Below are positions 23,506 to 36,955 of a stretch of 64,000 nt of DNA, piece by piece. The position numbers and the translations under genes were made by a program. The DNA is from Candidatus Proruminimicrobium quisquiliarum (lineage in GTDB: Bacteria > Elusimicrobiota > Endomicrobiia > Endomicrobiales > Endomicrobiaceae), in contig JAHDRN010000009.1 of assembly GCA_018433245.1 (NCBI GenBank), positions 62,001-126,000 on the forward strand, read 5' to 3'. The first letter of the stretch is position 1. Every line of letters begins with the position of its first letter. The notes under the pieces are model-generated. The model searched no databases. It had not been told where the DNA came from and was given only the letters and a program-made list of their open reading frames with translations.

Positions 23506-24606
23506 TCAGTCAAATTTAGGCACTTTTAATTCCGACGGATCGGCTTTTTTGAAAAGTTTGGAAACATTGCCGTGGTAATCCTGATTTTTGCTTAAATCTA
23601 TTTTCATCGTTTCGGCGATACCGTTAAATGACGCAAAATCCGCCCAGACAAGATAAGGGCTTATTGTTGACTCGTAATAATAATATCCGTTCGTTAAATC
23701 TCCCAATGTGCGCCATATCGTAGCGGCCGTGTATGGATTTTTAGGATCCAACGAAACTATAAAAGGCTGCGAAGCATTTCTTGTCACGCTTAAAACATAA
23801 GCAAGCGCTTCTCTGAGATTGTTGGGCTGCGGCAAATTTTTCATATAAAAAGATGCTCTTACGAAACGGTCTGTCGCCTGAGAAGTACCGGGCAACGGTT
23901 TATCGCCGCCGAATCCCTGATACTCTTTAAGATTTTCCCGCTGTTTGTCAAACGTCGGAGAATTGGTCATAATCGTATAGGCGCGGTCATGATATATAAC
24001 CGGTTTGCCGTTTATATATTCTATAACGGCCGAATCGCCGGTTTTATCCGCAAGGGCAAGATGAAGAGAAGCTTTTGTCATCGCTGTTCCTACGGTCGGA
24101 ATATACATCGGAATATTGACGTCAACTATCTGAATTTTTTCCTGTTTGATCGCTGTTACCGCTTCTTCAACAGTAGAATAATTATCCAGAATATACTGAG
24201 CCCATAAAGCTATTGACAATCCCGGCCGCGTTTCGTCCCTTTTTCCGTAATCGCTTTCATTAAGCCAGAGTAAATTTGCTTCAAGCCCTTTTTCGTTTAT
24301 TCCGTCGGATGCAAAAGACTGCCCTTTTACGGAAGACGCCAAAACTATACTGCCGTATTTTGCAGACCATAGGGCAGCGTTTGGCTCGTTAAGACCGCTG
24401 CGCTTAATTCCTTTCGGAAGAAACCACAAAGCGCTGTCTACATTTTCAGGCCAGTCCATATTTCTTCCTACTAAAACAGCCTGTCCGTTATTTGCCGACA
24501 AGACTCTGCTGCATGCGAAAACGGCGTCATCAACAAAAAATAAAAATGCCGCTGACAGAAAAACAAGCGGCGCGCAAAAATAAAAAAACTTTTTAAAATA
24601 AATCAT
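23506..24606 (-). CDS. Exported choloylglycine hydrolase/penicillin acylase-like Ntn hydrolase
   Basis: This 366-residue linear-amide C-N hydrolase of the bile-salt hydrolase/penicillin V acylase family has a signal-like helix (residues 5-25). The mature nucleophile is Cys32 (FACSRVL), followed by Asp51 in GRNMDWPE, the family spacing. IMTNSPTFDKQ and SVTRNAS hold further active-site residues. An in-frame GTG at 24627 overlaps the GAGGAGA ribosome binding site, so the ATG at 24606 is chosen. Substrates may be bile salts, penicillin V or acyl-homoserine lactones; none can be favoured. Confidence 0.88.
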   Translation of the reverse strand: MIYFKKFFYFCAPLVFLSAAFLFFVDDAVFACSRVLSANNGQAVLVGRNMDWPENVDSALWFLPKGIKRSGLNEPNAALWSAKYGSIVLASSVKGQSFASDGINEKGLEANLLWLNESDYGKRDETRPGLSIALWAQYILDNYSTVEEAVTAIKQEKIQIVDVNIPMYIPTVGTAMTKASLHLALADKTGDSAVIEYINGKPVIYHDRAYTIMTNSPTFDKQRENLKEYQGFGGDKPLPGTSQATDRFVRASFYMKNLPQPNNLREALAYVLSVTRNASQPFIVSLDPKNPYTAATIWRTLGDLTNGYYYYESTISPYLVWADFASFNGIAETMKIDLSKNQDYHGNVSKLFKKADPSELKVPKFD

Positions 24607-24691
24607 ATTCTTTCTCCTCACCGGCACAGACTATCAACCCGCATATTGTTTGACACCGTTTTAAGCGCCCGATATGCGCAAAAAAACAAAA

Positions 24692-24739: not shown

Positions 24740-25288
24740 TTATAACGCGAATTTATAACCTAAATTAAGATTTATTGAGGTGGCAGTAAATTTATCTCCG
24801 TTACCTTCTCCGGCATTTGAACCGTAAATCAATTCAACTATAAACGATTTTATTTCTGTTCCTGCGCCTATGCCCCAATATAGGCCGCCTTTTATATCGT
24901 CAATATCAGTGGCTCTCGGCATTCCGTATCCGATTTGTATTAAACCGTAAATACAGCTGAAAATTTCAGAATCTAAAGCCATTGTAGGTTTTGCCGCAAA
25001 ATAAATATTCGTAAAACCGACTTTAAGATCAGAATCATCTTTCATTGCTGTTTCAAGGCCATACATTAAACCGGCGCCTAAAGCTATGGCAGGATCAACG
25101 TAATAATAAAAATCGCCGCCTAATCCGAATGATGTTTCTAAATCCATACTTGAAACACCGTCGGGTTTTATGGTAGAATTTAATCCTATCCCCAACTTTG
25201 CATCAGCTTCCATAGCGCCTTTCTCGCTTGCCAAAACAGGCAATGCAAGAACCAACATCAACAAAACCGACAAAATGCTTTTCTTCAT
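24740..25288 (-). CDS. Small outer-membrane beta-barrel protein, copy 1 of 3
   Basis: This 182-residue exported protein starts at ATG 25288, preceded by AAGGAGAGG. An in-frame TTG at 25306 would add six residues but covers the ribosome binding site. The signal peptide is KKSILSVLLMLVLALPVLA. The mature part has about eight amphipathic strands (GGDFYYYVDP, FTNIYFAAKP, IYGLIQIGYGMPRATD) and ends GYKFAL. It is paralogous to the next two genes. The fold looks like a small OmpA/OmpW-type barrel of unknown role. Confidence 0.83.
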   Translation of the reverse strand: MKKSILSVLLMLVLALPVLASEKGAMEADAKLGIGLNSTIKPDGVSSMDLETSFGLGGDFYYYVDPAIALGAGLMYGLETAMKDDSDLKVGFTNIYFAAKPTMALDSEIFSCIYGLIQIGYGMPRATDIDDIKGGLYWGIGAGTEIKSFIVELIYGSNAGEGNGDKFTATSINLNLGYKFAL

Positions 25289-25349
25289 TTTCCTCTCCTT
25301 TTTCAAAATTTTGAAACAATTTTACTGCCTCGTTTGCATTGTAGCATAT

Positions 25350-25895
25350 TTATATTGCAAATTTATAACCTACGTTTAAAGTTACCATAGAGTGTGTAAC
25401 GTCAAATGCCGGATCCGACGGTCCCGGTTTTACTGTCATTTTATTGTTTGAATATACTACTTCAACTATCCATGACATCAATTCTATTCCCGCTCCCGCT
25501 CCCCAGTATATTCCGCTGTCTACTTTTTCAACATCTGATACTCTGACAAGCCCGTATCCGAACTGCCCCAATAAATAAACGTCGGCAATAAACCCTATTT
25601 TCGGCTTTACCGAAACATAAATGTTCGTCATTCCGATTTTGACCCCGGCCGGATTTTTAACTTTAGAATCAAAAACATTGCTTATTCCGGCTCCGATTCC
25701 GACGGAGGGAAGAAGATACATATAACCTTCCGCGCCAAGTACAAAAGGGCTGTCCACGTCCATTGTTAGCCCACCACTGCCGTCTATCTTTGCATTAACT
25801 CCGTAACCGGCCTTACCTACAACTTCAAGCGTTTCACAAAAAGCGGGTACAACCAAACCAATCATCAACAACACTGCCAAAAAACTTTTTTTCAT
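25350..25895 (-). CDS. Small outer-membrane beta-barrel protein, copy 2 of 3
   Basis: This 181-residue protein has a signal peptide (KKSFLAVLLMIGLVVPAFC, cleavage near FCE). It shares with its neighbours the order EGYMYLLPSVGIGAG, MTNIYVSVKPKIG, LLGQFGYGLVRVSD and GIYWGAGAGIELMSWIVEVVY, and ends GYKFAI. Predicted eight-strand barrel. The Ala-Phe-Cys at the signal end is not a good lipobox. Gaps of about 60 bp and 20 bp separate it from copies 1 and 3, with no terminator, so all three are likely one unit. Confidence 0.82.
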   Translation of the reverse strand: MKKSFLAVLLMIGLVVPAFCETLEVVGKAGYGVNAKIDGSGGLTMDVDSPFVLGAEGYMYLLPSVGIGAGISNVFDSKVKNPAGVKIGMTNIYVSVKPKIGFIADVYLLGQFGYGLVRVSDVEKVDSGIYWGAGAGIELMSWIVEVVYSNNKMTVKPGPSDPAFDVTHSMVTLNVGYKFAI

Positions 25896-25914
25896 TATGC
25901 CTCCTCAGGCATTT

Positions 25915-26472
25915 TTAATAATGAAATCTGTATCCTATGTTTAAAGCCAAAGTTGAATATGTTATATCTGAAGAATCCGAGCCGGCCGTAAGTTTGCCGT
26001 TATTTGAGGAATACAAAATCTCAAATATAAAAGATTCATATTCCACTCCCACTCCTATGCCGAAATACAACCCGTTTTCAACGCTGCCGGCAAAATCAGT
26101 CGCTCTTATAAGTCCGTATCCTATCTGTCCGATATAATAAATGCTGTAATCGTCAAAAGATATTTTAGGCTTTAGAGCAAAGTAAAGATTTGAAAATTCA
26201 TATTTCGCGTCTCCGCCTTCTTTTACTTTTGCTCCGAAAATATTGTTTGCTCCAAGTCCGATTCCTATTGAAGGAACCGCGTAATAATAAAAATCCGTTC
26301 CTATTGAAAACGTCATATTCATATCGGTTGTGCCGGCATCGGTCTTTAACGACGGATTTATCATAAATCCCGCCTTTATATCCGCTTCCGTTTTTCCGTC
26401 ATATTTTGATAAAGCAAACAACGGCGCCGTCAAAACAAACATCATTATTACGGCAAAAATACTTTTTTTCAT
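25915..26472 (-). CDS. Small outer-membrane beta-barrel protein, copy 3 of 3
   Basis: This 185-residue exported barrel protein has signal peptide KKSIFAVIMMFVLTAPLFA and a mature part with GTDFYYYAVPSIGIGLG, FSNLYFALKPKIS, YYIGQIGYGLIRATD and GVGVEYESFIFEILYS, ending GYRFHY. It is first of the three tandem paralogues and follows the ptsI stop by only 17 bp, with GGGAGGA as its ribosome binding site and no room for a separate promoter and terminator. It is therefore probably transcribed with the PTS genes, and the barrels may form the outer-membrane entry for the sugar. That link is inference. Confidence 0.83.
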   Translation of the reverse strand: MKKSIFAVIMMFVLTAPLFALSKYDGKTEADIKAGFMINPSLKTDAGTTDMNMTFSIGTDFYYYAVPSIGIGLGANNIFGAKVKEGGDAKYEFSNLYFALKPKISFDDYSIYYIGQIGYGLIRATDFAGSVENGLYFGIGVGVEYESFIFEILYSSNNGKLTAGSDSSDITYSTLALNIGYRFHY

Positions 26473-26489: not shown

Positions 26490-28235
26490 TTATCTGTATT
26501 TGAATTTTTTAATTACTCCGGAAATCGCGGCTCTGTCCGAACATTTCAAAAGCTCGTTAGCAAGATTTTTTGCGTCTTTCATTGAAACGCTTCTGATAAC
26601 ATTTTTAATTTTCGGTATCTGAATCGCGGACATACTGAACTCGTCAAGACCAAGTCCTAAAAGAGCGATTGAAAATTCCGGCGAACCGGCCATTTCCCCG
26701 CACATTCCGACCGATTTACCGGCGTTGTGTCCGGCGTCAATTATTGTTTTTAAAAGCCTTAAAATCGCAGGGTGCAGAGGATCGTATAAAAAAGCAACGT
26801 CTTCGTTTACCCTGTCAACCGCCATCGTGTACTGAATTAGATCGTTTGTCCCTATTGACATAAAATCAACTTCCTTGGCTATAATATCGGCTACTACGGC
26901 AACCGAAGGAACTTCTATCATCGCTCCGATCTGTATGTTTTCGTCAAATTTTTTGCCTTCTTTTCTCAGTTCAATTTTTGCCTGGTTTAAAATATCGTTT
27001 GCCTGTCTTATTTCTTCAATCTGGGATATCATCGGATACATTATTTTAACATTGCCGTTGACCGACGCTCTTAAAATTCCTTTAAGCTGGGTTTTAAATA
27101 AATCAGGATACTTTAAACAAAGCCTTATTGCTCTTAATCCCATAAAAGGATTTGCTTCCTGTCCGATATTCATAAGACCGAGTTTTGAAATTTTATCTCC
27201 GCCAAGATCTATGGTTCTTATTATAACCTCATACGGCATCATCATTTTTGCGACTTTGCTGTAATTGCTGAAATGTTCTTCTTCCGTCGGAAGAGTTTTT
27301 CTGGTAAGATACATAAATTCGCTTCTGTATAATCCTATGCCGTTTGCTCCGTGTTTTAAAACAGAACGGACTTCCTCCGGATTTTCAATGTTTGCGCCTA
27401 AAACAACTTCTTTGCCGTCAATTGTGGTCGCGGGCAAATCTTTAAGTTTTTCAAGATTTTTCTGCGTCGCGGCCTGTATATCGTGTTCTCTTTTATAATT
27501 TTCCTGCGTTTCTTTTGAGGGATTTAAAATTACGATACCCTGATTACCGTCAACTATTATAGACATTCCGTGCGAAACCTGCGACGTAATATTTTTTAAA
27601 CCGACGACGGCCGGTATTTCTAGACTTTGGGCGACAAGCGCGGTATGCGAAGTTTTGCCGCCTGTGTCGGTGGCAAAGCCTCTTACCATTACTTCTCTCA
27701 TTGAAACCGTATCGGAAGGCGTAAGATTTTTTGAAACAACGATTGATTCCGAATCCAAGTCCGCAAGAGTCTTTTTTTGTTTGCCCTGCAAATGTCTCAT
27801 CAGTTTTTTGGCAACATCAACAATATCGTGCTTTCTTTCTCTGAAATATTCGTCGTCAATCAAATCAAAAGCTTTCGTTATCTTTTCGGTTACTTTATAA
27901 ATGGCGAATTCCGCGCTGTTGCCTTCGTTAATCAAAGCGACGGCATCTTTGTTAAGCATCGGGTCATTTAAAATCAGCACATGGGCATCTGCGATTTTTG
28001 CATAGCTTTTCCCGAGCATTTTGTTTAATTCAACCTGATTTTCCTGAAGTTCGGCTTTTGTTTTGACAATCGCCTGATTCAAACGCGTTATTTCGTCTTT
28101 TATTTTGTTTTTCGGTATTGTTTTTTCTATTAAAACAAGTTCGTCGTCTTCAAATAAAAAAACTTTGCCTATGGCAACGCCGGGCGATGCCGGAACGCCG
28201 GTTAAAATAATGTTTGTTTTGTCATTTGGAGTCAT
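26490..28235 (-). CDS. ptsI: PTS enzyme I
   Basis: Enzyme I takes phosphate from PEP and passes it to HPr. The 581-residue protein has the N-terminal domain with active His197 in GGKTSHTAL, the PEP-binding barrel with TIDLGGDK, GLRAIRLCL, IGTNDLIQYT and the C-terminal MCGEMAGSP. Length is normal. It is the last PTS gene in the run and overlaps ptsH by 4 bp. It is followed after 17 bp by the small-barrel genes. Confidence 0.97.
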   Translation of the reverse strand: MTPNDKTNIILTGVPASPGVAIGKVFLFEDDELVLIEKTIPKNKIKDEITRLNQAIVKTKAELQENQVELNKMLGKSYAKIADAHVLILNDPMLNKDAVALINEGNSAEFAIYKVTEKITKAFDLIDDEYFRERKHDIVDVAKKLMRHLQGKQKKTLADLDSESIVVSKNLTPSDTVSMREVMVRGFATDTGGKTSHTALVAQSLEIPAVVGLKNITSQVSHGMSIIVDGNQGIVILNPSKETQENYKREHDIQAATQKNLEKLKDLPATTIDGKEVVLGANIENPEEVRSVLKHGANGIGLYRSEFMYLTRKTLPTEEEHFSNYSKVAKMMMPYEVIIRTIDLGGDKISKLGLMNIGQEANPFMGLRAIRLCLKYPDLFKTQLKGILRASVNGNVKIMYPMISQIEEIRQANDILNQAKIELRKEGKKFDENIQIGAMIEVPSVAVVADIIAKEVDFMSIGTNDLIQYTMAVDRVNEDVAFLYDPLHPAILRLLKTIIDAGHNAGKSVGMCGEMAGSPEFSIALLGLGLDEFSMSAIQIPKIKNVIRSVSMKDAKNLANELLKCSDRAAISGVIKKFKYR

Positions 28236-28501
28236 ATTTCCTCTCCGAACCCGTTATTAAATATTTCTTCCATTTTGCTTATCGCTTCATTTTCGTCAAT
28301 TCCGTCCGCTCTGAATAAAAGCTCCGTTCCGTTTGCAGCCGCAAGCATCATAAGCCCCATTATGCTTTTAGCGTCCACTGTATATTCGTCTTTAACAATC
28401 GTAATTGTTGACTGGAATTTCATCGCCGACTGCACAACCATTGACGCCGGTCTTGCGTGCAGTCCCAGTTTATTGATAACTCTCAATTTTTTTTCCGTCA
28501 T
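28232..28501 (-). CDS. ptsH: PTS phosphocarrier HPr
   Basis: This 89-residue HPr relays phosphate from enzyme I to the IIA proteins. His15 lies in GLHARPAS and the regulatory Ser46 in DAKSIMGLMML. Keeping Ser46, together with hprK in the same run, means HPr(Ser-P) regulation is likely. It lies between the IID and ptsI genes, overlapping ptsI by 4 bp. The length and the GTELLFRADGIDE segment are typical. Confidence 0.97.
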   Translation of the reverse strand: MTEKKLRVINKLGLHARPASMVVQSAMKFQSTITIVKDEYTVDAKSIMGLMMLAAANGTELLFRADGIDENEAISKMEEIFNNGFGEEI

Positions 28502-28535: not shown

Positions 28536-29321
28536 TCACAATCCCAAATAACCGATCACAAAACTGAATAATATGGCGCAGTAAAACATTATAACGGGCC
28601 TCATTTTGCCGAATAAAAAACTAAACAGCAAAATTATTCCGAAAATTCCTATTTCGGGTATAGAATAATCGTAAACCCCTATATTAACAGCCGGATTAAA
28701 TCCGAATAAATCAAAATAAAAATATAAAGTCGCCACAATCGCGGCAAGACCTATAAGCCTTACAATATCGCCTATATAGGTAAGTTCAAATTTTGCCACA
28801 AGTTTAATCATCTGTTCATTCAGCCTGAAACTTATAAATAAAATCCAGTATCTGAATAAAATATGCACCACATTATACAAAAATATAAAAGCGATTGGCG
28901 CAACCCATAAATAATCTGCGTCAAACATATTAATCGCAAGGATGGACAACAGTATAGCGACAAACGACGTAACCGGACGCCACGTCCCCCAAAAAAATGA
29001 ATCTCCTATCGCGGCAATCGGACCCGATATCACCGATTTTAAAATCTCCGGTTTTTTTGTATTTTTGGATCTGCCGCTTGCTATTTCTCTTTCGGCGTTT
29101 ATAATCATTGCAAAAACTATGTTTGCCATATAAGGATTTGTGTTGAAAAAACCTATGTGCCTCAATAATACCTCTTTTCTTTTATTTTTATCCGGATATA
29201 ATTTTTTTAAAACGGGATACAAAACATATAAAAATCCGATATTCTGCAGTCTTTCAAAATTCCACAAAGACTGGACAAAAAACGTTCTGATAAATAATTT
29301 CGCGTTTATTGAGTTATTCAT
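28536..29321 (-). CDS. PTS mannose-family EIID component
   Basis: This 261-residue integral membrane IID subunit works with IIC to move a sugar of the mannose/fructose/sorbose class. The N-terminal cytosolic part has QSLWNFERLQNIGFLYVLYP, then GFFNTNPYMA and ISGPIAAIGDSFFWGTWRP, which are IID hallmarks. Hydrophobic segments lie in the C-terminal half. It overlaps the IIC gene by 8 bp. Sugar specificity cannot be read from it. Confidence 0.94.
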   Translation of the reverse strand: MNNSINAKLFIRTFFVQSLWNFERLQNIGFLYVLYPVLKKLYPDKNKRKEVLLRHIGFFNTNPYMANIVFAMIINAEREIASGRSKNTKKPEILKSVISGPIAAIGDSFFWGTWRPVTSFVAILLSILAINMFDADYLWVAPIAFIFLYNVVHILFRYWILFISFRLNEQMIKLVAKFELTYIGDIVRLIGLAAIVATLYFYFDLFGFNPAVNIGVYDYSIPEIGIFGIILLFSFLFGKMRPVIMFYCAILFSFVIGYLGL

Positions 29322-29964
29322 CTTTCTTTTTTAAAAAAGGAATTCCTATAATATTTTTAAAATTGTATAAAACCAAACCAAATCCGAAAACAGGCAGATA
29401 ATACCAGGCTTTTTTAAAAGCTACTTCAAGTCCCGACGGAATATATACCGCCATATTTATATATATCAGTCCGCCCAGCACCATAAAAACGAAATAAACT
29501 ATAGCAGCCCTTAATATAAAAAGAACAAGTCCCGAATACAAACCGACCGATATTCTGTATTCTTTGCCCTGTTCTATTCCTTTTTCTATCCAATGCATTA
29601 TCTTTGTGTTGAAAAGTCTTCCCGCTATATCAACTTCCCTGTATAAATATGCAAACGGAACCGCAATCGCAAGCGCGAATATCGCCGCGTCCTGGCTGCC
29701 TTTAAAATGCAGACAGCTCCACGAAACCGACAATACCGTCATCATCGTTAAATCAACCGGAATTGACGTTCCCAGAGGAATCGCGTTTATCCACATCATT
29801 TCAACTATCATGCCGAGCCAAAATCCTGTATTTATATCTCCCAGAATATATCCTACAAGCGGACCCGCGAATATCGGCCTTGAAACCATAAACTGTCCGA
29901 ACATTGTTATATCCAGGCTCAAAAATGCGCCGAGTACCGACAAGACTACGAGAGTTTCTATCAC
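29314..29964 (-). CDS. PTS mannose-family EIIC component
   Basis: This 216-residue IIC membrane subunit has several helices and the family segments SRPIFAGPLVGYILGD, GFWLGMIVEMMWINAIPLG and VDLTMMTVLS. Its length is somewhat short (E. coli ManY is about 266). It overlaps the upstream GH57 gene by 4 bp and the downstream IID gene by 8 bp, so GH57, IIC and IID are coupled. It forms the sugar channel with IID. Confidence 0.93.
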   Translation of the reverse strand: MIETLVVLSVLGAFLSLDITMFGQFMVSRPIFAGPLVGYILGDINTGFWLGMIVEMMWINAIPLGTSIPVDLTMMTVLSVSWSCLHFKGSQDAAIFALAIAVPFAYLYREVDIAGRLFNTKIMHWIEKGIEQGKEYRISVGLYSGLVLFILRAAIVYFVFMVLGGLIYINMAVYIPSGLEVAFKKAWYYLPVFGFGLVLYNFKNIIGIPFLKKKDE

Positions 29965-32024
29965 CTTTTTTCTCCGTTTTTAACAGATACCGTCAACGTA
30001 AATCCGAATTCCGCGCCCGGTTTTAAAGAAAATTTATATACATTAAAAACCGCGGTTCCCTGATATGTTTTTTCATATCCGTTTTCGGAAGTTGAGACCG
30101 TTTTTATCGGCGTTATCCAAAAAACTCCTTTTTTTGAACTTGAAACGGTTACGGACATACCGAGATTTTCATCGTTTCTTGTCCATGAAAAAACGTTTTC
30201 GGCTTGCGCGGCGTCGTCAAGCGTTTTATTTGAAAAAGCAAAAACCTGTTCCGCGGCAAACGTAAGATCAAGAGATTTAGCGTCGTTATTTATTATTTTA
30301 TAAGCGGCTTCATATCCTTCTTTTTTCAAAGGTGTTATGATTTTTTGAATTTCTACTTTTGAACTTGCGCCGTCAATCCATATATTTCCTTTTCTTGACA
30401 GTTCAAGTTTTCCTTCTTTAACGCCGATTTCGTAGCGCCCCAAAACAAAATCTCCCTGCTCTTTGAATTTTACCGGATAAATATCGGCGTATGACGTGTC
30501 ATTGTGAAAAAAATGGTCTACAAGCGAAGCTTTTCTGTACCAATCATAATTGAGATGCCTCTCAAGACCGAGTTCTTTAACTTTTATCTCATCCGAATGT
30601 ATGCTTGCCAATTCCTGAGAATCGGACACTTTATTATTGTATATTGCGTCTTTAAGTTTTTTATGATAGCCCTCGTAGCGCCTTGTTAATACGTTTGATA
30701 AATTATAATTTTTCTTTAAAATATCAAATTCAAAAATCGTTCCGCCGGTCTGCCTGACATAAATATTCTGAATCTTGCTTTCATAAAGAAATTCATCGCT
30801 GCCGTCGCAGTCAAAATCCGATTTATGCCATAAAGGTTTAATCTGCGCCGACTCGTTATAAATATTTTCTGCTTTTAACAGATGCTCGTAAACGGCGTTT
30901 CTCAAATGCGGCAGATAAAGACCTCCGAAAACTCCGTGCCAGTAAGCGCAGTTACACTGTCCTGCGTATAACGCGTCAGATAAGCCGGATAAGGACGCTC
31001 CTTTTTCAACAAGCGAATTGATTTTACCGCTTGTCCTTATCATTTTTTTATGCATATTGTTTGACTCGTCGTATTTGCTTAAAAAAGATCTCCAAAACCC
31101 GCCTCTTATAAAAGGTTTAAATCTGTCGTTGTTCTCGTTCTGCCTGATAAAATCGTCATAGTTATTCTGTATTTGGGCAGGAAGAGTCCATTCGGACATT
31201 TCAAAATAAGAACCGGTCTGCAGATAAATTCTGTCCTGAGGTTTTATAGAGTTTAAAACTTCGCTGAAAGTAACCGTTTCCACAATATCGGAATTTTCTT
31301 CCAGAGCCGTCAAAAATTTATCAAGCCAGCCGTATTCGTAAACATGCTTGTAGGTGCCGGGCCACATTCCGAATTTTTCGCCGTCATCGGCCATTACAAG
31401 AACCGTTTCTTTATCCTCTTGGGCCATACGTTTGAAATAATCAATACATACGTTTACGTCATGAAAAGGGATAAAATATCTTAATTTCTGGCTTATCGGA
31501 AATACGTTAAGCGGCGCTCCGTGGTCTTCAGTAGTGTAATATCCTCTTAAAGAATTAACGTCAAGCCCGGAAGAACTGAAATGAACGTCATCAAGCGCCA
31601 CATATTTTATTCCGGCATCGGTTAAATCTTTAACAAGAGACGGTTCCCATACTCGTTCGGCAATCCAGGCTCCGGCAGGATTACAATTGAACGTATTTTT
31701 TATAAACTGCGAGAGTTTATTTATCTGCCCGATTCTGTCCTTTTGCGGAATTACCGATAAAATTGGCTCGTAATATCCGCCCGATAAAATTTCAAGATTC
31801 CCTTTAGCTATTAATTTTTTTATGTTTGAAACGTACGATTTTTTGCTTAAAAGAAAATCCCACAAAATGCCGCTTGCGTGCAGATTCCATTTAATGCTTT
31901 TATGTTTAAGCATAACATCCATAAAAGGTTTATACGCGTTATCGTATCCTTTTTGAAAAACCCATTCAAAATTACCGACCGGCTGGTGATTGTGAACTGC
32001 GAATATAAATTTTATTTTTTTCAT
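29961..32024 (-). CDS. GH57 4-alpha-glucanotransferase-like enzyme
   Basis: This 687-residue glycoside hydrolase family 57 protein resembles the Thermococcus litoralis 4-alpha-glucanotransferase. It has HNHQP near residue 11, GGYYEP at 82, the nucleophile Glu123 in WIAERVWEP and the acid/base Asp214 in MADDGEKFG, at the same numbers as the T. litoralis enzyme. The C-terminal half holds the DUF1925/1926-type beta domains. It has no signal peptide and so acts on cytosolic glucans. It is placed between the IIB gene (4-bp gap) and IIC (4-bp overlap), an unusual position. Related alpha-amylase activity cannot be excluded. Confidence 0.92.
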   Translation of the reverse strand: MKKIKFIFAVHNHQPVGNFEWVFQKGYDNAYKPFMDVMLKHKSIKWNLHASGILWDFLLSKKSYVSNIKKLIAKGNLEILSGGYYEPILSVIPQKDRIGQINKLSQFIKNTFNCNPAGAWIAERVWEPSLVKDLTDAGIKYVALDDVHFSSSGLDVNSLRGYYTTEDHGAPLNVFPISQKLRYFIPFHDVNVCIDYFKRMAQEDKETVLVMADDGEKFGMWPGTYKHVYEYGWLDKFLTALEENSDIVETVTFSEVLNSIKPQDRIYLQTGSYFEMSEWTLPAQIQNNYDDFIRQNENNDRFKPFIRGGFWRSFLSKYDESNNMHKKMIRTSGKINSLVEKGASLSGLSDALYAGQCNCAYWHGVFGGLYLPHLRNAVYEHLLKAENIYNESAQIKPLWHKSDFDCDGSDEFLYESKIQNIYVRQTGGTIFEFDILKKNYNLSNVLTRRYEGYHKKLKDAIYNNKVSDSQELASIHSDEIKVKELGLERHLNYDWYRKASLVDHFFHNDTSYADIYPVKFKEQGDFVLGRYEIGVKEGKLELSRKGNIWIDGASSKVEIQKIITPLKKEGYEAAYKIINNDAKSLDLTFAAEQVFAFSNKTLDDAAQAENVFSWTRNDENLGMSVTVSSSKKGVFWITPIKTVSTSENGYEKTYQGTAVFNVYKFSLKPGAEFGFTLTVSVKNGEKR

Positions 32025-32028
32025 TTTT

Positions 32029-32532
32029 TTAATCTATTTTTAAATTTTTCGCCTCTTTTTTTATAGTGTCTGAAATATTATGTCTTTCGTCGTTGGGCAA
32101 AATTCTTGATTCAAGTTCTATCCCGCAGGATATCATTTTCATAAACGCCCTGATATCGTTTGCATCAACCGATACGTTTGACAAAAGCTGTTTTTTCCCG
32201 TGGACAAAGTGCATCCCGCCGACGTTTACGGAATTGAATTTAACGCCGTTTTCTATCATTTTTACTATATCGCAGGGATTTGAAAAAAGTATCATTACTT
32301 TTTCATTGTCGTATACGTTGTTTATTATTTCGTAACTGGCGTCTTTAATGTTTCTTATGGACAATTCAACGGTGCTCGGCATCGCCATTGAAAGAAGCGC
32401 CTGCTGCATTTCGTCGTTTGCAACCTCGTTTGAAACAACAAGTATTCTGTTGACGAAAACAGTTTTAAGCCAGCCTTGGACTATCTGGCCGTGTATAAGC
32501 CTGTCGTCTATTCTGATAACTTCTATCCCCAC
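32029..32532 (-). CDS. PTS mannose-family EIIB component
   Basis: IIB accepts phosphate from IIA and gives it to the incoming sugar. With the GTG start at 32532 the protein is 167 residues and opens MGIEVIRIDDRLIHGQ, placing the phosphorylation site at His14. The GTG is chosen because AGAGGTGG lies at the right distance upstream and family members start there; an upstream frame to 32553 lacks support and would run into repeat R3. The motif MPSTVELSI is typical. GH57 follows after 4 bp. Confidence 0.94.
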   Translation of the reverse strand: MGIEVIRIDDRLIHGQIVQGWLKTVFVNRILVVSNEVANDEMQQALLSMAMPSTVELSIRNIKDASYEIINNVYDNEKVMILFSNPCDIVKMIENGVKFNSVNVGGMHFVHGKKQLLSNVSVDANDIRAFMKMISCGIELESRILPNDERHNISDTIKKEAKNLKID

Positions 32533-32553
32533 TATAACCACCTCTTTTAACAA

Positions 32554-32639: not shown

Positions 32640-33056
32640 TTATTTAAGTCTCGCCATTAACAACTGCTTTGCATTTACTATGCTTTTTTGTCCGTCGGCC
32701 AAAACTTTATCCGCCAGTTCTTTGGCGTTAAGCGCCGTTTTACCGGCAAAAAGAGCCGATATTATCATAGGAAGATTTACTCCCGTCAAAACTTCAACGT
32801 TGAATCTCTTGCACATCGGAAGCGCCGCATTGCACGGAGTTCCGCCGAGCATATCCGTAAGAATCAGAGTTCCTTTTTCTTTATCGTTTATTTCTTCTAA
32901 AACATTTGCAATCCGTTCCTGTAAACTTACCAGATTGTCGTCGCTTATATCTTTTTTTACAGAATATAAATTATCCTGATGCCCGGCTATGACTTCAGCC
33001 GTTCTTATAAGTTCGTCGGTTAGCCCGCAGTGCGAAACTATTAAAATTTTTATCAT
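32640..33056 (-). CDS. PTS mannose-family EIIA component
   Basis: This 138-residue stand-alone IIA domain carries the active His9 in LIVSHCGL. The family motif LTDMLGGTPCNAAL follows at about residues 78-91. It receives phosphate from HPr. It overlaps the yvcK gene by 4 bp upstream and is separated from the IIB gene by repeat R3. In many mannose systems IIA and IIB are fused; here they are separate. Confidence 0.94.
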   Translation of the reverse strand: MIKILIVSHCGLTDELIRTAEVIAGHQDNLYSVKKDISDDNLVSLQERIANVLEEINDKEKGTLILTDMLGGTPCNAALPMCKRFNVEVLTGVNLPMIISALFAGKTALNAKELADKVLADGQKSIVNAKQLLMARLK

Positions 33057-34003
33057 TTTCTTTTATCCTCGCCGATTAAGGAAAAAATTGTTTTTGCCAA
33101 TTTCTCAAAATCATGATGAGCATACTGAGTATGCGAAACAAAATCTTTCCTTATTATTTTAACATTTTTATGTCTGTTTGTATCAATTTCAACAGGAAGA
33201 GAAAATTCTCTGGCGTATCTTCTGGCGACAGGCGCGGCTATTTTTCCGGCGTTTACAAGAACCGCGTCAAGTATTCCTTTATACGAATGCTGTTCTATGG
33301 CGGCAATATGGTCGGTTAAATTAAAGTTCGCCGTTTCTCCTATCTGCGTCATTATATTGCATATATATATTTTTTTCGCTTTTGTTTTCTTTAGAGCGCC
33401 TATAACGCCGTCAAACAGTAAATTTACTATTACCGACGTATAAAGAGAGCCGGGCCCGAGTATTACAAAATCAGCCTGCATTATGGAATCGGCGACTTTG
33501 CCTGAAACTTTCGCGTTTTTAGGGAAAATTTCAACATGTTTTATCGCGTTTTTGCTTTTTGAAATTCTGCTTTCGCCTTTTATTTGTTTGCCGTCAATAA
33601 GAGTCGCTTTGAGCGAAACATTTTCAAGCGACACCGGCAAAACTTTTCCCTTTATTGCCAGAACGTCTCCCGCGTTTGCGATCGCTTTGTCAAATCCTCC
33701 CGATACTTCCGATAAAGCCGTTAAAAATAAATTGCCGAACGAATGATTTGAGAGCGACCCTTTTTTAGGAAATCTGTATTGAAAGAGTTTTGCCATCAGG
33801 CTTTCTTCTTCGGACAGCGCCACAAGGCAGTTTCTTATATCGCCCGGCGGCAGAACGCCGAGTTCGGTTCTTAATTTGCCGGAACTTCCTCCGTCGTCTG
33901 AAACCGCCACGACCGCGGTTATGTCAAACGGATATTTTTTCAACCCTCTTAAGAGAGTTGAAAGCCCGCTTCCTCCGCCGATTGCAACGATTTTATAATT
34001 CAT
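33053..34003 (-). CDS. yvcK: YvcK/GlmR gluconeogenesis factor
   Basis: This 316-residue protein of the YvcK/GlmR (CofD-like) family regulates carbon flow toward cell-wall precursors and binds UDP-GlcNAc in Bacillus. The motifs IGGGSGLSTLLRGLK, VSDDGGSSGKLR and LPPGDIRNCLVALS are diagnostic. It lies next to rapZ, the common order in Firmicutes, but whiA is absent and PTS genes follow instead. It overlaps the IIA gene by 4 bp. Confidence 0.95.
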   Translation of the reverse strand: MNYKIVAIGGGSGLSTLLRGLKKYPFDITAVVAVSDDGGSSGKLRTELGVLPPGDIRNCLVALSEEESLMAKLFQYRFPKKGSLSNHSFGNLFLTALSEVSGGFDKAIANAGDVLAIKGKVLPVSLENVSLKATLIDGKQIKGESRISKSKNAIKHVEIFPKNAKVSGKVADSIMQADFVILGPGSLYTSVIVNLLFDGVIGALKKTKAKKIYICNIMTQIGETANFNLTDHIAAIEQHSYKGILDAVLVNAGKIAAPVARRYAREFSLPVEIDTNRHKNVKIIRKDFVSHTQYAHHDFEKLAKTIFSLIGEDKRK

Positions 34004-34004
34004 T

Positions 34005-34865
34005 TCAGCCTGCTTTTGATATGTCTCTGTGGTACAGAGTTACTTTGTATTTGTTTTTTATGAAAAACTTGGCCAGTTTTTCCGCCGCAGCCACGGATCT
34101 GTGTCTGCCGCCGGTGCAGCCTACGGCTACCGTAAGCTGGCTTTTGCCTTCTTTTATATAACCGGGTATCAGAAATTTCAAAAGGTTTGAAATCTTATTA
34201 AAAAAAGTTTTATACTGTTTTTGTTTCTCAATATATTTAACAACGGCAGCGTCTTTTCCGGTTTTCATTTTCAGCGAGCTTACATAATTGGGATTTGAAA
34301 TAAACCTCGCGTCAAATACAATATCGGCTTCCTGAGCTATGCCGTATTTAAACCCGAACGACATTACCGTCAAAAACATCCGTTTCCCGCCGAGCGACGC
34401 GCCCGTTAAATTTGCAAGAATACTTTTAAGCTGTCCTATCGTCATATCGGTCGTGTTTATCTGGCGGCTTGCAAGATTTCTTATAATTTCAAGACGTTCG
34501 CGCTCTCTGGCGACAGATTCTTTCACAAGTCCGCCTAAAGGATGTTTTCTTCTGGTTTCGGAATATCTTTTTAAAAGAGTATTGTCGTCCGCGTCTAAAA
34601 AAAATATTTCGTTTTTGATTTTTTCGTCTTTTAATTTCTTAAGTATGCCGGATATTTTTGAAATGTTTTTGCCGGATCTTATGTCAACGCTCAAAGCGAC
34701 GTTTTTATACTTTTTTCTGTCTTTTTTGCACAAGTCTATGAATTTAAAAATAAAATCCATCGGCATATTGTCTATGCAGACAAAACCGAAATCTTCAAGT
34801 ATGTTGAGTACTTTGGTTTTGCCTGCGCCGGATATGCCGGAAATTATCAGAAAATTACTTTTCAT
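34005..34865 (-). CDS. rapZ: RapZ/YvcJ nucleotide-binding adapter protein
   Basis: This 286-residue P-loop protein of the RapZ/YvcJ family has Walker A SGISGAGKT and VCIDNMP near the start, then the C-terminal CTGGRHRSVAAAEKLA region that binds RNA or GlcN6P in E. coli RapZ. In E. coli it controls GlmS through small RNAs; in Bacillus it influences competence. The gene overlaps hprK by 11 bp and precedes yvcK by 1 bp, placing it in a conserved carbon-regulation group. Confidence 0.95.
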   Translation of the reverse strand: MKSNFLIISGISGAGKTKVLNILEDFGFVCIDNMPMDFIFKFIDLCKKDRKKYKNVALSVDIRSGKNISKISGILKKLKDEKIKNEIFFLDADDNTLLKRYSETRRKHPLGGLVKESVARERERLEIIRNLASRQINTTDMTIGQLKSILANLTGASLGGKRMFLTVMSFGFKYGIAQEADIVFDARFISNPNYVSSLKMKTGKDAAVVKYIEKQKQYKTFFNKISNLLKFLIPGYIKEGKSQLTVAVGCTGGRHRSVAAAEKLAKFFIKNKYKVTLYHRDISKAG

Positions 34866-35805
34866 TTTTTGATTTGTTCATCTGGGCTATTAATTTTTTG
34901 CTTAATTCAAGCGCCGAAAAATGTCCGCGGTTTTTTAATCTCTGGTTTAAACTCGCCGTTTCAACTATAATCGCAAGATTTCTTCCGGGCCCTACCGGAA
35001 TCGTAAGTTCCGGAACATTTACGCCCAAAATATCGGTATAATGCTCGTCTATGCCGAGCCTTTCATGATTTTTTGCCGCGTCCCATTCAATAAGATTTAT
35101 GACAAGTTCTATCTTTGATTCGTCAAGAATATTGGCCACGCCGAACATTCTCTGTACGTCTATTATTCCGATGCCTCTGATTTCCATGTGGTGCTTGCTG
35201 ATTCCGGCGCTTTTTCCTATTAAAATATGTCCGGATCTTTTTGTAATTTCAACTATATCGTCGGACACGAGCATATGGCCTCTTTTGACCAGTTCAAGCG
35301 CGCATTCCGACTTGCCTATTCCCGATTTTCCTCTTATAAAAACGCCCAGACCGTAAACGTTTGATAAAACGCCGTGCAGTTTTTCCGACGGCGCAAGTTT
35401 TTCGTCAAAATAATATATTAAATCGCCCAAAAGCTGGGCCGAGGTTAAAGACGTTTTTAAAAGGGGTACTTTAATTTCATTGAAAACTTCAATCATTGTG
35501 GGAAGCGGGTCAAAACTTCTTGTTATTATGCAGCACGGAACCTGCTTGGGGGAAAAAACTTTTTTTAAAATATCAATCTGCTGTTCGCGCGATAATTTTT
35601 TGAGAAAAGTAAACTCGGCTATGCCTATTATCTGGGCTCTTTCATAAGGCAAATGTTCAAAAAACCCGGCAAAAGCGAGCCCGGGTCTGTTTACGTCGGG
35701 AACCGTGACAAGCCTGTTAAGTCCATCGGCCCCTGCAATTATTTCTAATTTAAAATCGCGAGATTTCTCGTCAAAAAAAGTGCCTACTTTGAGCACTTTC
35801 ATCAA
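34855..35805 (-). CDS. hprK: HPr kinase/phosphorylase
   Basis: HprK phosphorylates and dephosphorylates Ser46 of HPr according to metabolic state. The 316-residue protein has Walker A GKSGIGKSECALELVKRGH, LVSDDIVEI and the family signature MEIRGIGIIDV. The matching HPr with Ser46 is encoded at 28232..28501 in the same run. It overlaps ptsN by 4 bp and rapZ by 11 bp. Length is normal. Two adjacent Met codons (MMKV) open the frame. Confidence 0.96.
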   Translation of the reverse strand: MMKVLKVGTFFDEKSRDFKLEIIAGADGLNRLVTVPDVNRPGLAFAGFFEHLPYERAQIIGIAEFTFLKKLSREQQIDILKKVFSPKQVPCCIITRSFDPLPTMIEVFNEIKVPLLKTSLTSAQLLGDLIYYFDEKLAPSEKLHGVLSNVYGLGVFIRGKSGIGKSECALELVKRGHMLVSDDIVEITKRSGHILIGKSAGISKHHMEIRGIGIIDVQRMFGVANILDESKIELVINLIEWDAAKNHERLGIDEHYTDILGVNVPELTIPVGPGRNLAIIVETASLNQRLKNRGHFSALELSKKLIAQMNKSKNEK

Positions 35806-36260
35806 TAGGCGTCCTCTTGCTGTATAATTTTAACTATTTCTTCTTTTGTTTCCGCGTTTTTAATCGCCTGTCTTAAGAATTTATCTTTAAACAATCTTGA
35901 AATTCTTGATAAAGCTTTTAAATGCTGACCGGTAACTTCAACCGGACCTACCAAAAGAAATACGATATATACAGGTTCTCCGTCAAGAGAATTAAACTCC
36001 AAACCTTTTTTAGATATTCCCAAAACGCCTACTTGTTCGTTTAAAACATCGGTCTTTCCGTGGGGTATTGCAACTCCCTGTCCGATTCCGGTAGAACCTA
36101 ATTTTTCTCTTTCTAAAACGACTTCAACGATTTCGTCGGTTTTTTTAACCTTTTTTGTTGTTTTCAAATGTTCAATCAGCTCAATAATCGCGTCCTTCTT
36201 GTTTTGAGCTTTAAGGTCAACAATAATTGAATCTTCGCTCAAAAAATCCATGATATTCAT
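35802..36260 (-). CDS. ptsN: PTS IIA nitrogen/fructose-type protein
   Basis: This 152-residue PTS IIA domain of the fructose/nitrogen (PtsN) type has its phosphorylated residue at His67 in VAIPHGKTD. There is no membrane or IIB domain, so it is probably regulatory like PtsN. The ATG at 36260 is chosen because GGGAGGAAG lies just upstream and the protein then starts MNIMDFLSEDS; an upstream frame to 36293 lacks a binding site. It follows the hibernation factor gene and overlaps hprK by 4 bp. The hpf-ptsN neighbourhood resembles the rpoN operon of Proteobacteria. Confidence 0.93.
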   Translation of the reverse strand: MNIMDFLSEDSIIVDLKAQNKKDAIIELIEHLKTTKKVKKTDEIVEVVLEREKLGSTGIGQGVAIPHGKTDVLNEQVGVLGISKKGLEFNSLDGEPVYIVFLLVGPVEVTGQHLKALSRISRLFKDKFLRQAIKNAETKEEIVKIIQQEDAY

Positions 36261-36295
36261 TACACTTCCTCCCAAAACTTCTATAATTTTCAATT

Positions 36296-36844
36296 TTAAA
36301 ATTCAGGTTCAAGCATTACAAGAGAACCGCTGTCGTTTCTGTACAAAACGTTTATTTTGTCGGTTGACGAATTTAAAAACATATAAACTCTGTAATTAAA
36401 AGAATCCATTTCGCTTATCGCATCCTCAATGGAAACGGGCTTTACGTCAAATCGTTTAATTTCGGCTATTTTTGTTCTGGAGTCTTCCATCGCGTCAAGC
36501 GAGAATACTTCCGATTTTATTTTTTTTGATTTTAATACTTTTAGATTTTCCGATCTGTGGATTTTTGAAATTTCTTTTTGTTTTCTGAGCTGCTTGGTAA
36601 GTTTGTCTACCGTGAGGTCTATTGAGGCGTATAAGTCTTCCGATTCTTCTTTTGCTCTGAACGGTTTGCCGCCCACGCTGAACACGACTTCGGTAATCTG
36701 TCTGTTTTTTTCCACCGATAAAACTACGTGTGCCATGACATTATCGCCGTCAAAAAACTTGCCGGCTTTCGCCACTTTTTGCCTGACATAAGTGTCAATT
36801 GCATCAGTCAGTTTCAAATGTCTTGCTGTGATGTTTATTTGCAT
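36296..36844 (-). CDS. hpf: Ribosome hibernation promoting factor, long form
   Basis: This 182-residue factor dimerises ribosomes (100S) in stationary phase. It starts MQINITARHLKLTDAI, with an N-terminal RaiA/HPF domain to about residue 95, and ends with the C-terminal dimerisation domain (FDVKPVSIEDAISEMD...FNRV-like block). The ATG at 36844 has AAAGGAG at good spacing; an upstream frame to 36913 would add a 23-residue extension not seen in the family and cross the promoter. It is first in the PTS-regulator run. Confidence 0.95.
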   Translation of the reverse strand: MQINITARHLKLTDAIDTYVRQKVAKAGKFFDGDNVMAHVVLSVEKNRQITEVVFSVGGKPFRAKEESEDLYASIDLTVDKLTKQLRKQKEISKIHRSENLKVLKSKKIKSEVFSLDAMEDSRTKIAEIKRFDVKPVSIEDAISEMDSFNYRVYMFLNSSTDKINVLYRNDSGSLVMLEPEF

Positions 36845-36871
36845 AGCGCTGTCTCCTTTGTTTATCCCTGT

Positions 36872-36900
36872 CTTATACCATTTTTTGTTTTTAAAGGCAA
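36872..36900 (-). promoter_or_regulatory. Probable sigma-70 promoter for the hpf-PTS operon
   Basis: On the minus strand TTGCCT (36895..36900) and TATAAG (36872..36877) are 17 bp apart, giving a leader of about 20-25 nt before the hpf ribosome binding site. Each box has one or two mismatches to consensus. A further TATAAT lies upstream near 36935. No downstream gene has an obvious promoter of its own. Confidence 0.55.
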
Positions 36901-36955
36901 TAGACAGGAACAAATGTAAGATGCCTGATATTTGAATTATAGGTGAAATAACGTT

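Follow-up and report, generated by a model that had tools for sequence, protein, structure and literature searches.

The GH57 gene that sits inside a mannose-family PTS operon of the window (the whole stretch of 64,000 nucleotides analysed here) probably encodes a housekeeping cytosolic glycogen 4-alpha-glucanotransferase, which would be co-expressed with the HprK/HPr phosphorelay and would not be a partner of the permease. This function is assigned on the basis of homology and gene-loss patterns. What we observe is the identity of the enzyme and its catalytic residues, its conserved position, its loss together with glycogen synthase (GT5), the occurrence of GH77 in its absence, and its retention after loss of the permease. 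The source genome, judged by its relatives, belongs to the Endomicrobiaceae in the phylum Elusimicrobiota.

The gene is part of a run of twelve genes on the minus strand, from 36913 down to 26490, in the order HPF-PtsN-HprK-RapZ-YvcK-IIA-IIB-GH57-IIC-IID-HPr-EI, with identities given by Pfam and NCBIfam profiles (Table 1). IIA, IIB, IIC, IID, HPr, EI and HprK of a mannose-family PTS are all present in this contiguous run, and so are the phosphorylation sites, i.e. the histidines of IIA, IIB and HPr and Ser46 of HPr. The window carries both IIC and IID, and its PTS is not of the permease-less regulatory kind. Most adjoining genes overlap or sit a few bases apart; the IIA-IIB gap is 86 bp (perhaps ca 107 bp if IIB begins at an in-frame GTG located 7 codons downstream) and the IID-HPr gap 34 bp. 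GH57 itself starts with ATG 4 bp after the end of IIB, and its stop overlaps the GTG start of IIC by 4 bp, the spacing being exactly as an initial reading made from the DNA letters (the sequence-only reading) had stated. Directly after EI, three tandem paralogous outer-membrane beta-barrel genes are found (24740-26472, minus strand; the first shares 41% identity with the third), and just downstream of this cluster lies a gene for a putative secreted protein of the choloylglycine hydrolase/penicillin V acylase family (23506-24627, minus strand; PF02275, E 1e-46).

Table 1. Genes of the operon in the window, in order of transcription.
Feature	Coordinates	Strand	Evidence
HPF / sigma-54 modulation (S30AE) protein, first in run	36296..36913	-	PF02482 + PF16321
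PtsN-like EIIA (PTS_EIIA_2)	35802..36293	-	PF00359 E 5e-38
HprK, HPr(Ser) kinase/phosphatase with P-loop	34855..35805	-	TIGR00679 above cut-off
RapZ	34005..34865	-	NF003828 above cut-off
YvcK/GlmR-type CofD-like protein	33053..34003	-	TIGR01826 above cut-off
EIIA, mannose family, phospho-His in VSHCG	32640..33056	-	PF03610 E 7e-18
EIIB, mannose/sorbose family; phospho-His motif DDRLIHG	32029..32553	-	PF03830 E 2e-47; sequence
GH57 4-alpha-glucanotransferase (by sequence), 687 aa; E123 nucleophile, D214 acid/base	29961..32024	-	PF03065 + PF09094 + PF09095; whole-length 1k1w match E 5e-140; five conserved regions + specificity Lys
EIIC, mannose/sorbose family, 216 aa, shorter than E. coli ManY	29314..29964	-	PF03609 E 8e-28; matches ManY 6k1h/7dyr
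EIID, mannose family	28536..29321	-	PF03613 E 4e-40; solved EIID chains, E 1e-27
HPr with His15 and Ser46	28232..28501	-	PF00381 E 3e-29; sequence
Enzyme I (EI), 581 aa	26490..28235	-	sequence + position; profile matches directly after HPr in syntenic loci

The GH57 protein aligns over residues 1-662 with the 4-alpha-glucanotransferase of Thermococcus litoralis (1k1w), and its three domains (GH57 catalytic, AmyA-A_glucT_m and AmyA-gluTrfs_C) score far above the Pfam cut-offs, while the same search gave no BE_C domain. Alignment to the five conserved regions places Glu123 in WIAERV of region 3 and Asp214 in ADDGEKFGMW of region 4, which bears out the earlier statement that the catalytic pair is in place. 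A lysine at logo position 23 and a tryptophan opening region 3 have been given as marks of the GH57 4-alpha-glucanotransferases (PMC6037648), and the window protein has both, the lysine in ADDGEKFGMW and the tryptophan in WIAERV. A dead or misassigned enzyme is rejected, as these motifs are intact. By its domains, its match to 1k1w, its catalytic residues and this lysine, the protein can thus be assigned as a well-conserved 4-alpha-glucanotransferase with the corresponding activity predicted, in line with the name that the sequence-only reading had given it. Glycogen synthase (GT5) and a GT35 phosphorylase are encoded in the same genome, as are two more GH57 proteins, one a branching enzyme with a BE_C domain and the other 729 aa long. 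A search of the genome gave no GH77, so that the GH57 of the operon is its only recognised dedicated 4-alpha-glucanotransferase.

The arrangement was surveyed in 295 Elusimicrobiota genomes, many of which are metagenome bins, such that absence calls carry that error. GH57 of the window type is found in 96 of them and mannose-type IIC in 241. Thirteen of the 96 are without an IIC match, and in one of these (G002) the contig ends inside GH57. In every one of the 83 genomes where both are present, IIC is the next gene downstream of GH57 on the same strand; this was read from coordinates in 67 and from fetched loci in 16, and in one of the 67 (G076) the distance looks large solely because the GH57 match is truncated. 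Krumholzibacteriota have GH57 in 34 of 80 genomes, and PTS genes flank it in 24 of the 30 loci examined, with IIC/IID following in 16 of the 24. The adjacency is therefore widespread (83/83 in Elusimicrobiota and at least 16 Krumholzibacteriota loci), not a peculiarity of one genome, and an accidental placement can be rejected from these counts. The arrangement had been called unfamiliar from described PTS operons, and our literature searches likewise gave no description of GH57 inside one.

The proposal that GH57 synthesis is coupled to that of the transporter holds in part. The IIB-GH57 gap is at most 30 nt in 46 of 58 loci and overlaps of -4 are common, which makes co-expression, and probably coupled translation, credible; the tight overlap with IIC, on the other hand, is not universal, match-to-match distances reaching 161-225 nt in a few genomes. 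The conservation of the arrangement in two phyla suggests that glycogen-turnover and sugar-sensing proteins are made together. A PTS operon of the order IIA-IIB-IIC-IID-HPr-EI that lacks GH57 also occurs (L147-L152), among others in families of the gut Elusimicrobium type.

We now turn to the losses of the gene. Among the matches listed, 76 genomes were assigned to the Endomicrobiaceae, and 56 of them have IIC: 36 with both GH57 and GT5, 13 with neither, 2 with GH57 only and 5 with GT5 only (Fisher p 4e-7, a value that ignores shared ancestry; 7 discordant). The five with GT5 and PTS but no full GH57 are G106, where the gene is decaying, G028, with a broken contig, G014, which has GH77, and G022 and G180. 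Some Endomicrobiia with GH57 show only weak GT5 matches, and may have a glycogen synthase of a different kind. GH57 is pseudogenised in place between IIB and IIC in five genomes of endosymbiont type (G106, G110, G113, G128, G142), where it is broken into fragments or carries stops, with IIB, IIC, IID, HPr and EI intact. Such pseudogenes of endosymbiont-type Endomicrobiaceae, at differing stages of decay between intact IIB and IIC, are seen at loci L156, L163, L164, L171 and L172. In some endosymbiont genomes HprK (G023; L154, 8708-9260, minus strand) and IID (G194; L169, 6246-7055) also appear fragmented, so that decay is beginning to reach the rest of the PTS operon there. Within this family the presence of GH57 tracks glycogen synthase and not the PTS: endosymbionts without glycogen synthase have lost GH57 or have it as a pseudogene, and they retain IIB, IIC, IID, HPr and EI.

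Two genomes, G005 and G014, are cleanly devoid of GH57, with IIB touching IIC, and have a GH77 of ca 900 aa; in G005 a GT5 match is absent. Outside the Endomicrobiaceae, only 7 of 219 Elusimicrobiota genomes are without both GH57 and GH77, and family f16 has both. Beyond the Elusimicrobiota, nine genomes with PTS- or HprK-linked GH57 have no GH77. Genomes with GH77 and no GH57 show what one would expect if a non-homologous enzyme had taken over the same activity. That GH57 might be essential to the permease is rejected, since IIB adjoins IIC in G005, G014 and G022 and GH57 pseudogenes stand beside intact PTS genes.

The reverse case is also found. Taking permease-less to mean that a search covering the mannose-type IIC family gave no match, 12 Elusimicrobiota from several families retain GH57 (G049, G057, G068, G070, G072, G078, G080, G094, G130, G247, G288, G302). 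HPr-EI follows GH57 directly in 10 of them, and the contigs of the other two end inside GH57. HprK and RapZ mostly lie upstream, and many of the loci also have a lone IIA, which often stands directly before GH57. The His and Ser motifs of HPr are intact in 10 of 10 of these loci. The P-loop of HprK is intact there too, and the phospho-His is intact in every lone IIA except that of G057, a mannose-type protein (L121, 9884-10315, minus strand) with Arg at this position (ILTRGNF) that is possibly a non-phosphorylatable regulator. At locus level, GH57 lies directly before HPr-EI also in four Krumholzibacteriota cases (L192, L198, L199, L200). No mannose-type IIC was found in the whole genomes behind L066, L069, L070 and L103, a set that overlaps in part with the contigs of the phylum survey. 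GH57 lies directly or nearly directly after HprK, with no permease genes, in members of the Sumerlaeota and Zixibacteria and in one unplaced bacterium (L074, L081, L103), and mannose IIC and GH77 are both absent from these genomes. A GH57 branching enzyme with BE_C is located within the hprK-ptsHI cluster of other Elusimicrobiota (L065, L088, L121, L122, L123, L125, L126); IIC is still present in the first two, and in L122, L125 and L126 a DUF4912 protein stands between RapZ and the branching enzyme. The position of GH57 depends on the phosphorelay cluster, not on the permease.

Since GH57 is lost with glycogen synthase and kept without the permease, its partners are to be sought in glycogen metabolism and the HprK/HPr/EI phosphorelay operon, not in the transporter. 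In the mechanism that we propose, GH57 would move maltooligosaccharide segments between alpha-1,4-glucan chains, which would let glycogen synthase, branching enzyme and phosphorylase build or run down the store. Its slot in the hprK-rapZ-EIIMan-ptsHI operon, which is immediately ahead of IIC, or of HPr-EI in genomes that have lost the permease, would cause it to be produced together with the sugar-sensing phosphorelay, presumably by co-transcription. GH57 would be independent of the permease, and the PTS of GH57, and the benefit would be a glycogen-remodelling capacity matched to hexose-phosphate and PEP status.

A serious rival, with a real although clearly minority chance of being correct, is that GH57 was inserted once into a housekeeping operon of the elusimicrobial ancestor and has been passed on vertically with rare rearrangement, with no functional link beyond constant expression. 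The operon indeed carries unrelated housekeeping genes (HPF, RapZ, YvcK), and one branch of the GH57 tree (support 75, or 96 without families f12 and f15) sets the PTS-linked sequences of Elusimicrobiota apart, as a single ancient insertion followed by vertical descent in this phylum would allow. However, the IIB-GH57-IIC order is present in a second phylum, even though the AU test rejects a single clade of all GH57 sequences linked to PTS or HprK genes, those of Krumholzibacteriota and others among them (p-AU 0.0004), which means either a repeated origin of the association or a transfer of the block. A clade of the Elusimicrobiota and Krumholzibacteriota sequences is borderline in the same test (p 0.057). 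Moreover, neither deep divergence nor the loss of the permease nor the insertion of further genes (branching enzyme, YvcK) has disrupted the gene order, which speaks against inertia as the whole explanation.

A different possibility, which would add to the housekeeping role instead of replacing it, is direct control: HPr, through the phosphorylation state of His15 or Ser46, or the mannose-type IIA could bind GH57 and set glycogen turnover to PEP/hexose status. We regard this as rather unlikely, and as doubtful in the extended form in which the HprK/HPr/EI phosphorelay of Elusimicrobiota and Krumholzibacteriota, including its permease-less versions, would be a dedicated controller of glycogen turnover acting directly on the GH57 (and branching enzyme) of its own operon. 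GH57 does stay between HprK/RapZ/IIA and HPr-EI in lineages without mannose-type IIC, with the phosphorylation sites and P-loop intact there, a lone phosphorylatable IIA often directly in front, and the branching enzyme within the same cluster in some loci. There are also precedents: HPr of E. coli controls glycogen phosphorylase (PMC11046441), and Brucella melitensis has a permease-less regulatory PTS in which HprK, EIIA-Man and NPr are clustered (PMC2937029). The Arg in the IIA of G057 counts against such control, and operon inertia predicts the same picture.

Coupling to the importer, in which GH57 would process or be fed by the sugar brought in by the PTS, and uptake would be joined to alpha-glucan storage via the permease, is very unlikely. 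The position of GH57 between IIB and IIC, at a spacing of 4 bp, would fit it, but GH57 and permease have been lost independently in both directions, and the PTS delivers a sugar phosphate, which is not a substrate for a 4-alpha-glucanotransferase. Of the link between sugar uptake and alpha-glucan storage drawn in the sequence-only reading, the tight packing in a PTS operon thus stands and the partnership with the importer does not, as GH57 disappears with GT5 while the permease stays, and persists beside HPr-EI in genomes that have lost the permease. For the Endomicrobiaceae this PTS has been annotated as a glucose system (PMC11257099), a point in favour of coupling; this 2024 paper on Endomicrobia refers to the mannose PTS and to glucokinase, and a search of its text for glycogen or glucanotransferase gave no match. 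Least probable of all is that the protein is merely GH57-like with another specificity, e.g. hydrolysis or branching instead of transfer: the assignment within the clade is made from sequence, and 1k1w, the relative with a solved structure, comes from a hyperthermophile, but both catalytic residues are retained in 81 of 81 sequences compared, the position-23 lysine and the 4-alpha-glucanotransferase domain set are there, and BE_C is absent.

The proposed housekeeping glycogen enzyme, co-expressed with the phosphorelay, bears on a wider matter. The targets of HprK/HPr in Gram-negatives without a Firmicute-type catabolite repressor are an open question, and a glycogen enzyme encoded in the hprK-ptsHI operon of two phyla, even after loss of the permease, is a concrete candidate for a target or a co-regulated process. 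The endosymbionts provide a natural experiment here: without glycogen synthesis they erode exactly GH57 within an otherwise largely intact PTS operon.

Compared with known systems, the window enzyme shares with that of T. litoralis the whole-length homology, three Pfam domains, Glu123/Asp214 and five conserved regions, but its sequence is clearly diverged, its host is an anaerobic and probably mesophilic bacterium, and its gene is embedded in a PTS operon. As in E. coli, a PTS phosphocarrier would be linked to glycogen turnover; the partner there, however, is a phosphorylase encoded elsewhere, whereas binding of HPr to GH57 is a hypothetical step suggested by gene order. The permease-less cluster of B. 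melitensis resembles those of several Elusimicrobiota relatives, but no alpha-glucan enzyme has been described in it, and the window retains its permease. With the hprK-rapZ-EIIMan-ptsHI operon of Gram-negatives, the operon of the window shares the order HPF-(PtsN)-HprK-RapZ-IIA-IIB-IIC-IID-HPr-EI, seen also in the GH57-less loci mentioned above, and it differs by the glycogen enzyme at the IIB/IIC junction. The locus is thus of a known operon type, and is new in having a glycogen enzyme inserted.
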